Shown: positions 23,801 to 26,800 of the stretch, in pieces
Numbering within the stretch: position 1 is the stretch's first letter
How the letters are laid out: every line of letters starts with the position of its first letter
Assembly (NCBI RefSeq): GCF_964204645.1
Contig: NC_134034.1
Location: 12,343,962 to 12,407,961, forward strand
Source of the DNA: Tubulanus polymorphus
Lineage: Eukaryota > Nemertea > Palaeonemertea > Tubulaniformes > Tubulanidae
Direction of reading: 5' to 3'
DNA length: 64,000 nucleotides
Notes under the pieces: model-generated
Seen by the model: the letters and a program-made list of their open reading frames with translations, nothing else
Told to the model about the DNA's origin: nothing
Databases searched by the model: none
Position numbers and translations under genes: made by a program

Positions 23801-26800
23801 CCTGATAGAAGCGGCCGGTAGAGAGTTTGTAATCTGTAAACCCGATAGAAGCGGCCGGTAGAAAGTTTGTAATCTGTAAACCTGATAGAAGCGACCGGTA
23901 GAGAGTTTACCGAAATACGTTCAATGAAAACCTGCTTCAAAGTCGCTGAAATCCAGTCCTTACCGCGTGTGACAATAATTATCGAGTATATTTTGTGTAT
24001 CTGATTGATGTATTTTCAGGATTCTTCATGCGATATTTATAATAGCACCTCAATTTTGCGGTATGGCTCCCGTATACTACCCATACGTCGGCCTACTCTC
24101 TTGTTTACAAGTTCTACATCTAATTTGGTTCTATCTAATATGTAAGGCCGCGTATATAGCTATACGCACCGGAAAGGTATGATAGTACGACGATCCCTGT
24201 CCTACTCCTCTCCTGCCCTCATCTCTCTCTCCTCCCTGTCCTCTCACCTCCCGCCCTCATCTCTCTCTCCTCCCTGTCCTCTCCCCTCCCGCCCTCATCT
24301 CCCTGTTCTCTCCCCTCCGCCCTCATCTCCCTCGCCTTACTCCCTAGGATCTCCCCTACTCTAACACTCTCCCCCACTACCTGTCCTCCCTCTAATGCCC
24401 TCTCCATCTTCCTCCTTCCCCTACTCTCCCTCCCTTGTACCCTCTCCTCCCTCCTTTCCCTTCTCTACCCTCTCGCTGCTGCTAAGCAAATCTTCAGAAT
24501 ATTCAGCAAATTATAGCGCTTCAATTATTATCAATTTTAATCGACCGTCTGCTTAATACGGATCATTCGAGACTGAAGACATTTCTTCCGATTGATAGAA
24601 AAATTCAGATTTAACGTTACATTCTATAATACATGTATATATTCATTGTGTAGTTCATACAAATATCCGGACTCAATCACGATCCGTATTAAGCGGAGTC
24701 TACATTTTTCTTTTTTGATACTCCTTTGATCAATGATTGACGAAAAAGTAGCAGACATGTAAAACATGCTCATGTGCGGCAATGTTCGCTTAAATGTTCA
24801 TGTGCGGCATCTCATGTGTGGCATGTTCACGTACATGCTCATGTGCAGCAATGTTCGCGTAAATGCTCAACTGCGGCATGTTCGCATACATGCTCATGTG
24901 CGGCATGTTCGCATACATGCTCATGTGTGGCATGTTCGCGTACATGTTCATGTGCATACTTCAACATACTTTACGTTCTATGTCAACTGTGATTTAATTG
25001 ATTGATTACTGCGTCTGCTACTGCGTTCGTGGAAATCAAGGTTACGCGCTTCGTATGATACTTTATACGCTATTTCATGCATGTGTACACGCGCTTCTAG
25101 TCAGTCGGTTATGTAGTTCTGTAGTTGTACTGTAGGTGGCTCTGCATGATTACGATTCGATTTCTGAGGGTGTGGATTTATTTTCTAGCTATGATTAATG
25201 TCCCATCCTCGCTTGCCAGGGGTCTGGTATCACTCCCGAACTCGCTTCCACCAGCCCCCTGGCCTCACGAAGCGTGATTTCATTACTGGCGCTGTTGCGC
25301 ATGACGTTCACTACGTGTTCGCTGATTGGTCCATTTACCGGGAAATTCCATAGATGCCTAATTTCGTTTGTAACAAGCGCTATGATTGGCCCGACCTGAT
25401 TCTGGTCGGCTAGTAACGACTCGTGAGGTCAAGGGGTTCGGGGAACAGCTTTAGCGTAGTGGGTTCGAATCCCTTGACGGGTGAAGATGTTAATGTCCTG
25501 GCATGTTCGGTATCGTAATGCGAGTAGTTTTTGGGAAATTTTGAAAATCAAATTTTTTTTTCCAATCTAACATTTTCTAGGATATGAATTGTGGTGTTTT
25601 TCAGCTTTATTTCAGAAATGAAGGAAGAGAGAAAATATTCAATTTTACGATCACTTGATATTATTTCTTTTTCCATTTTCCAGCTGGTCGTAAAAATAGA
25701 AAGTGCAGTGCAGATTTATATTTTTCTTGTTTAGTTCAAATTTCGGCTAAACAGTGGCAGCACCTGACGACACATCCGTTATACACTGACTGCGGTCAGG
25801 ATCCAGTTCCTCAGTTGTGAGTTAGAGTTAACTCAACTTCGTCAACTCAACTCTTACGTATGAAATTAAAACCCAGAACTTCGAAACTCGATCCTGAGAC
25901 GCCAACAGTTGAACCCCTTAAAGGCCGTATATTTACATAGTGTTTTGGACATTTTCTGAATTTTGTGCAATTAATTGAAACACTGGGAAAACGAATTCAA
26001 GAGGCAATCGAAACCTTTAAGGGGTTGTCGAATAACGACTCTGGTCAGTTATCGAGGGGGCCAGTCGCATAGTCACGGCTTAAACTTTAGACCAGTCTTA
26101 GACTATCTTACGTCAGTAGCGTCAGTAGCTAATCAAACAACTCAAGATCAGTCTGAAGATTTTTCAGAACATTTTCGGTGTTGGCCACGACTGACCCCTG
26201 GACCCAGTTTCACAGTTGTGAGTTAAGATTTTACTCTGGAGTTAGCTCATTAGAAATGAACTAATTTTAACTCGGAGTTAACTGTCAACTCACAACTGTG
26301 GAACTGGGTTCTTGTTAAACCGTGAATCCAAATTGATTGATTGATAATGATATATTCTCTCTCTCTCTCTCATCGCGTTAGGTTATTGAATACGGCTACA
26401 TTTATTCGTTGGTCGATTATTAAAGAATCGTGGTTCGCTGTCGAGTTGATGGCCGCATTACTCGGAGTCTTACAGATTCTGCACATTGTGTGGAGTTATA
26501 TGATCGCGCGTGCGGTCTATCGTTATGTCATACTCGGACAGGTGATTCAACATCGTTCCCCATTTTCTAGAAACTCCTCTTCTTCGAGTTGTGTTCATTT
26601 ATTTTTTTCTGTTTTTAATTTGCGTTTGGCGTGTTCCTACTACTAAATAAACACCGATGCACCTCACAGGATTGTAGAAATGGTTTACTGTTCCCTGATT
26701 GTCAGGAACAGTCTCAGAAAATGGTTTACCGTCCCCTGATTGTCGGGAACAGTCTCTGAAAATGGTTTACTGTCCCCTGATTATCAAGAACAGTCTCAGA

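Follow-up and report, generated by a model that had tools for sequence, protein, structure and literature searches.

Two mutually exclusive exons in a ceramide synthase gene of the ribbon worm Tubulanus polymorphus may exchange the end of its acyl-CoA tunnel

The ceramide synthase locus

The window analysed here, a stretch of 64,000 nucleotides (nt) from the palaeonemertean ribbon worm Tubulanus polymorphus (contig NC_134034.1, positions 12,343,962 to 12,407,961), contains on its + strand a complete homeodomain-type (CERS2-6-type) ceramide synthase gene in which the eighth exon is present in two homologous versions, 8a and 8b (Table 1). On balance we favour the view that exclusive splicing of 8a or 8b yields two ceramide synthases from this one gene, with acyl-CoA tunnels, and probably acyl ranges, that differ.

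Every intron of the gene model is bordered by GT-AG. The product with 8a (isoform A) has 394 amino acids (aa) and is 100% identical over that length to the public T. polymorphus protein P0001 ('ceramide synthase 2-like'), and the product with 8b (isoform B) has 395 aa. In P0001 the TLC domain (PF03798) occupies residues 135-328 (161.2 bits, cut-off 24.6) and the Hox-like domain (PF00046) residues 85-128 (31.4 bits, cut-off 22.9), and the protein has the fold of human CerS6. The His pair in the VVHHITT motif of exon 6 is presumably catalytic. In the tail, DSRSETE departs by one conservative change from DxRSDxE, the C-terminal motif described for ceramide synthases, which in the nemertean Lineus longissimus reads DERSDSE. 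Judged by these domains and this fold, the product is a ceramide synthase of the CERS2-6 type.

When the genome was searched with a CERS query, only this locus was returned at E 0.001 or better, and of the 10 matches listed by a search for the TLC family, two fall in this gene and eight on contigs C4, C45, C2, C6 and C8. Five CERS proteins match only two of these eight places (E 0.001 or better; 31-43% identity), both on C45, where a second, divergent ceramide synthase gene is located (L007/L016, G000:C45, about 68.8-70.1 kb). No Hox-like exon was found in the C45 gene, which we take to be CERS1-like, probably. The one-gene picture of a preliminary description of this DNA must therefore be corrected: a single ceramide synthase gene could not be retained, the genome having at least one further, divergent gene, and the gene in the window would be the worm's only CERS2-6-type gene as far as the CERS and TLC searches of the genome reach.

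Table 1. Features of the ceramide synthase (CERS) gene, of the introns around exons 8a and 8b, and of other parts of the window.
Feature	Position	Strand	Basis or remark
CERS exon 1, start codon	11899-12083	+	splice site, frame, protein match to P0001
CERS exon 2, first part of Hox-like domain	13021-13147	+	splice site, frame, P0001, PF00046
CERS exon 3, rest of Hox-like domain	13736-13842	+	splice site, frame, P0001, PF00046
CERS exon 4, TLC domain	21063-21120	+	splice site, frame, P0001, PF03798
CERS exon 5, TLC domain	21795-21938	+	splice site, frame, P0001, PF03798
CERS exon 6, VVHHITT with His pair and HDAVDYW	22249-22377	+	splice site, frame
CERS exon 7, ends with split codon AA/G	22873-22979	+	splice site, frame
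CERS exon 8a: end of TM6, lumenal loop, TM7	24020-24176	+	splice site, frame, profile match; in public protein P0001
CERS exon 8b, mutually exclusive alternative to 8a	26382-26541	+	splice site, frame, profile match
CERS terminal coding exon, tail with DSRSETE, stop TAA at 28532-28534	28364-28534	+	splice site, frame
Pyrimidine-rich tract just after the 8a donor	24185-24474	+	290 nt, 86% C+T
Repeat-family hairpin just upstream of 8b	26202-26309	+	35-nt arms, 86% complementary
60-bp tandem array in an earlier CERS intron	19430-20835		23.6 copies
40-bp tandem array filling most of the intron before 8a	23026-23908		22 copies, 95% matches
Progranulin-like gene just upstream of CERS	3610-10290	+	many granulin-like cysteine repeats; named by eye
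Long multi-zinc-finger frame	47644-49935	+	named by eye from translation
Receptor-like seven-helix frame	50925-51935	-	named by eye from translation
Two similar acid-phosphatase-like stretches	52775-53089; 60748-61131	-; -	named by eye from translation

Exons 8a and 8b

Exon 7 ends ...CCG ATA AA/gtacgt (the slash marks the splice point), and the split codon AA/G is completed by the initial G of either 8a (157 nt; acceptor ttttcag/G, donor AAG/gtatga) or 8b (160 nt; acceptor gcgttag/G, donor CAG/gtgatt), both of which are entered in phase 2 and left in phase 0. If the two are joined, 8b is misread and a TAA follows after 13 codons, and if neither is included the terminal exon reaches a TGA after 13 codons. 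The pair thus consists of adjacent homologous exons of similar length and the same phases, in which the frame is kept only by single inclusion. The two exons have the motif LQxLHxxWxYxI in common and are otherwise diverged, with 26% of aligned residues shared and 87 of 165 aligned nucleotides alike; their protein alignment score (61) was reached by none of 1000 shuffles. In all of these respects, the borders, the split codon and exit phase, the retained motif and the two stop counts, the preliminary description proved accurate.

An exon-8 profile made from 49 related sequences, with Tubulanus left out, was run against the 2039 open stretches of at least 20 aa in the six frames of the window. 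It matched 8a with 60.9 bits (E 8e-18) and 8b with 43.2 bits (E 2.9e-12), the next best among the nine other matches listed scoring 7.1 bits (E 0.52). The GC content at third codon positions (GC3) is 0.51 in 8b, 0.52 in the constant exons and 0.35 in 8a. Of random pieces of the window, 8.6% keep a fixed frame of 159 nt open, and the open frame of 8b alone is for that reason weak proof; the case for 8b as a real exon is carried by its fit to the profile and its matching phases, and little by the open frame.

The exchanged segment

By structure comparison, exon 8 encodes the last part of transmembrane helix 6 (TM6), all of TM7 and the lumenal loop between them. The exchange had at first been described as that of a specificity loop; the loop does lie in exon 8, but the segment also holds the end of TM6 and the whole of TM7. 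According to the published account of the human CerS6 structure, the acyl tunnel is sealed and chain length limited by the TM6-TM7 loop, and TM4, TM5 and TM7 surround the acyl chain, and for mammalian CERS2 to CERS6 residues between TM6 and TM7 are reported to set chain length. The predicted models of two Lineus isoforms (see below) differ at the same loop, which is of 3 residues in one and 12 in the other.

Exon 8 of a CERS2-6-type gene would, in the mechanism proposed, have been duplicated in tandem and the copies would have diverged. Splicing would insert 8a or 8b, the phase lock turning double inclusion or skipping into a truncated protein, and each exon would close the acyl-CoA tunnel with a cap and form one of its walls (TM6 end, loop, TM7), with the His-pair site, the homeodomain-like domain and the tail held constant between isoforms. 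The tunnels would then differ in depth or shape, probably giving each isoform a different range of acyl chains; such a change of acyl range we consider probable. Exchange of the loop is supported as a reading because the exon anatomy, the isoform pairs of Lineus and the oysters, and the CerS6 structure paper all agree with it.

Exon 8 replaces all of TM7 besides the loop, which leaves room for a different reading, namely that both isoforms are made and active and that the swap alters location, partner elongase or the choice of sphingoid base, and not acyl chain length. The CerS6 dimer interface, however, is reported to consist of TM1a, TM3 and the TM3-TM4 loop, all encoded outside exon 8, and TM7 and the TM6-TM7 loop are among the parts that surround the acyl chain and cap the tunnel; an effect confined to something other than chain length appears unlikely.

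Exon-8 pairs in other lophotrochozoans

The comparison covered 154 rows (153 database proteins and isoform B), the database matches behind the pairs coming from one search with 50 matches and another with the best 120 of 203. With the 8b stretch alone (isoform B region 262-345) as query, only the 8a protein of T. polymorphus itself came back among 13 candidates, and Lineus X2 was missed because the search relies on 5-letter words common to query and target. Isoform B aligned with Lineus X2 made a more far-reaching query, the one behind the best 120 of 203 matches.

In six pairs the constant part, taken from about residue 150 up to exon 8, is identical and exon 8 itself is less than 75% identical. 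Besides isoforms A and B of the window, these are P0002/P0003 (X4/X2) of the nemertean Lineus longissimus and P0053/P0063 (X2/X1) of the oyster Saccostrea cucullata, both identical outside exon 8; P0060/P0077 (X3/X1) of the oyster Crassostrea (Magallana) gigas, identical outside exon 8 save for one tail residue; P0075/P0084 (X1/X3) of the brachiopod Lingula anatina, identical up to exon 8, X3 having a different tail; and a bat CERS4 pair, P0049/P0050, which was rejected as an exon-8 swap, P0050 leaving the family after the swap point. Six more pairs in the same list have constant parts that are 90-95% identical, with partners from different species, and the unnamed P0044/P0045, identical in their first halves, were dropped since their differences extend beyond exon 8. 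Among the matches listed, predicted proteins with an exon-8 swap come, as judged from their alignment, from three phyla. In Lineus the swap begins with W in one isoform against C in the other, as would be expected if a constant TG received its third base from whichever exon is chosen, with the codon split where it is in Tubulanus. A pair drawn from two scallop species, Pecten X1 and Argopecten X2, suggests that scallops have both exon-8 types.

The different tail that follows the swapped exon in Lingula X3 also bears on the possibility that 8b is an alternative last exon, used with polyadenylation in the intron behind it to give a shorter isoform without the acidic tail. The 8b frame does pass its donor and runs for 34 codons to a TAA (26644-26646) that overlaps an AATAAA (26646-26651). 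Such hexamers are common, however, with 106 on the two strands of the window, where shuffles average 87.6 and 1 of 100 reached 106; the 8b donor can be spliced in frame to the terminal exon, and in Lineus, Saccostrea and C. gigas the second isoform keeps the common tail. We regard this origin of an 8b isoform as improbable.

Short insertions are present at the exon-8 exit junction in PDB 8qz6 (human CerS6 isoform 2) and in oyster P0060/P0077 (AGKWNPLH; VPPCNQ), and the downstream border of exon 8 may be common to humans and oyster and itself be a site of splice variation.

One duplication or several

Exon-8 scores that point toward two types are those of 8a with Lineus X4 (100), 8a with Lingula X1 (94) and 8b with Lingula X3 (94), as compared with 61 for 8a-8b and 35 for 8b with Lineus X4 between types; the 8b-Lingula X3 score is suggestive only. 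Three comparisons argue against a clean split into two types, that of 8b with Lineus X2 (45, below the 8a-8b score), that of Saccostrea X2, which scores 97 with Lingula X3 and 93 with 8a, and that of 8b with a mammalian CERS5, to which it is 44% identical in the exon-8 segment. Given the first of these, 8b orthology among nemerteans would be tentative.

In an exon-8 tree (52 columns, 51 rows) 8b and Lingula X3 are sisters with 51/77 support. Holding each species' pair together was not rejected (Tubulanus p 0.22, Lineus 0.32, Lingula 0.16), nor were the groupings of 8b with Lingula X3 and Lineus X2 (p 0.33), of 8a with Lineus X4 (p 0.32) and of 8b with Lineus X2 (p 0.12). Within the bivalves, a single clade of the four oyster rows was rejected (p 0.004): the oyster and scallop X1 rows form one bivalve clade (100/96 support) and oyster X2/X3 with Argopecten X2 another (97/91). 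As these clades mix oyster and scallop by type, the bivalve exon-8 pair is older than the split between oysters and scallops. A tentative extension, which we judge possible and not yet probable, is that the pair dates back to the last ancestor shared by nemerteans, brachiopods and molluscs, and that many lophotrochozoans vary ceramide chain length by cell-type splicing of the tunnel cap.

Use of both exons

Both exons are probably used in Tubulanus RNA. Several observations nevertheless weigh against exclusive splicing into two enzymes, beginning with the low 8b-Lineus X2 score and its consequence for orthology given above. Protein database matches for Tubulanus include the 8a form only (P0001, a cluster of one member without isoform label), the 8b form not being found among them. 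8b is also the more diverged copy, its end branch in the exon-8 tree being 1.64 as against 0.81 for 8a. The isoforms of other species are predicted ('X') records, the two from C. gigas differing in genus and product names and possibly stemming from different annotation rounds. The second exon of Lingula, given the X3 tail, may be an alternative last exon, and the Lineus X2 model is less certain at the swapped loop (block pLDDT 84-86).

The longer branch and the missing 8b protein would also be expected of a decaying relic of a species-specific exon duplication that is hardly used. This we find very unlikely for an exon with an open frame, matching phases, both splice sites, a GC3 near that of the constant exons and a conserved LQxLHxxWxYxI. 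The missing 8b protein, together with the TAA met when 8a and 8b are joined, would likewise suit a poison or regulatory exon, 8b being included mostly with 8a or at a low level and nonsense-mediated decay tuning the amount of 8a enzyme. Such an exon has no need of a CERS-like frame, yet 8b matches the exon-8 profile in its productive frame and is nearer to Lingula X3 than to 8a, and the swapped exons of Lineus and the oysters occur in full-length proteins; a purely regulatory role is not likely, though we give it some weight.

Splicing control and repeats

Steric exclusion needs a short intron, and the 2205 nt between 8a and 8b are too long for it. The frame lock alone would expose transcripts with double or zero inclusion to nonsense-mediated decay. 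The pyrimidine-rich tract after the 8a donor has the highest C+T of any 290 nt in the window, a length that was picked after the tract had been seen. A 38-bp tandem repeat occupies positions 24194-24301 of it, and the tract may be a mere repeat; as a candidate splicing-control site for repressors like the polypyrimidine tract-binding protein (PTB) it is a lead only. PTBP1 is reported to modulate CERS5 exon 10 in human glioma. Control of the exon choice by RNA-binding proteins, perhaps of PTB type at this tract, is at present a doubtful proposition.

RNA structure was rejected as a splicing switch. A hairpin stands just upstream of 8b, and 26277-26311 pairs across 8b with 27912-27946 (35 nt, 89%), but the arms of the two nearest inverted repeats belong to an 82-copy repeat and are therefore unspecific: the motif CCAGTTCCACAGTTGTG has 82 matches (at most 3 mismatches, both strands, whole window) where 0.13 would be expected, in tandem arrays and lone hairpins (e.g. 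2529-4178, 13955-14385, 17476-17984 and 29159-29894). Two further tandem arrays lie in introns of the gene, and the other genes and frames of the window, from a progranulin-like gene to acid-phosphatase-like stretches, are listed in Table 1.

Comparison with known systems

The chain length of ceramides determines how membranes and signalling behave, and the several lengths made by one animal have so far been explained by gene families. A matched natural pair of enzymes with every residue in common except at the tunnel end would be an ideal test of chain-length control and, if the reading is true, splicing here does the work of gene duplication. Mutually exclusive exons as such are well known, and exchange of the CERS tunnel cap appears undescribed in the literature covered. 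A literature search from which subscription journals were largely missing showed, among the papers listed, no title or abstract start describing an exon-8 swap, and no functional description was found for the predicted isoforms of Lineus, Saccostrea, C. gigas and Lingula. The main texts of two surveys of human mutually exclusive exons do not contain the words CERS or ceramide; in a 2012 paper on ceramide genes of the Pacific oyster, as far as its text was available, ceramide synthase is a single expressed sequence tag (EST) and 'splic' and 'exon' are absent. The earlier statement that no description was known therefore holds for print as covered, although predicted isoforms with the swap are already in public protein databases.

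The exons 8a and 8b resemble known mutually exclusive exons, which are reported to be tandem homologues of which splicing takes one at a time, and mostly ancient. Human ACSL1 and ACSL6 come close, in that mutually exclusive exons of a lipid enzyme are described to swap a short motif with the fatty-acid gate domain; they belong to another enzyme family, exchange a short gate motif (Phe or Tyr) and make acyl-CoA, whereas CERS uses acyl-CoA and swaps a helix end, a loop and a helix. Within the CERS family, CERS2 exon 8 skipping in breast cancer and CERS5 exon 10 inclusion in glioma are reported as splicing events that alter ceramide levels. Both are cassette events, by which CERS2 loses most of the Lag1p motif and CERS5 gains another tail, and neither, as described, swaps the tunnel cap. 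Comparable in organization are the predicted isoforms of Lineus (X4/X2), Saccostrea (X2/X1), C. gigas (X3/X1) and Lingula (X1/X3), whose segments are swapped at the site of Tubulanus exon 8. Mammalian CERS2 to CERS6 have the same fold and belong to the same family as the Tubulanus protein, but the variants of the segment are in separate genes in mammals and in one gene in Tubulanus; were the pair ancestral, it would be the splicing counterpart of the CERS2-to-CERS6 family that vertebrates built by gene duplication.
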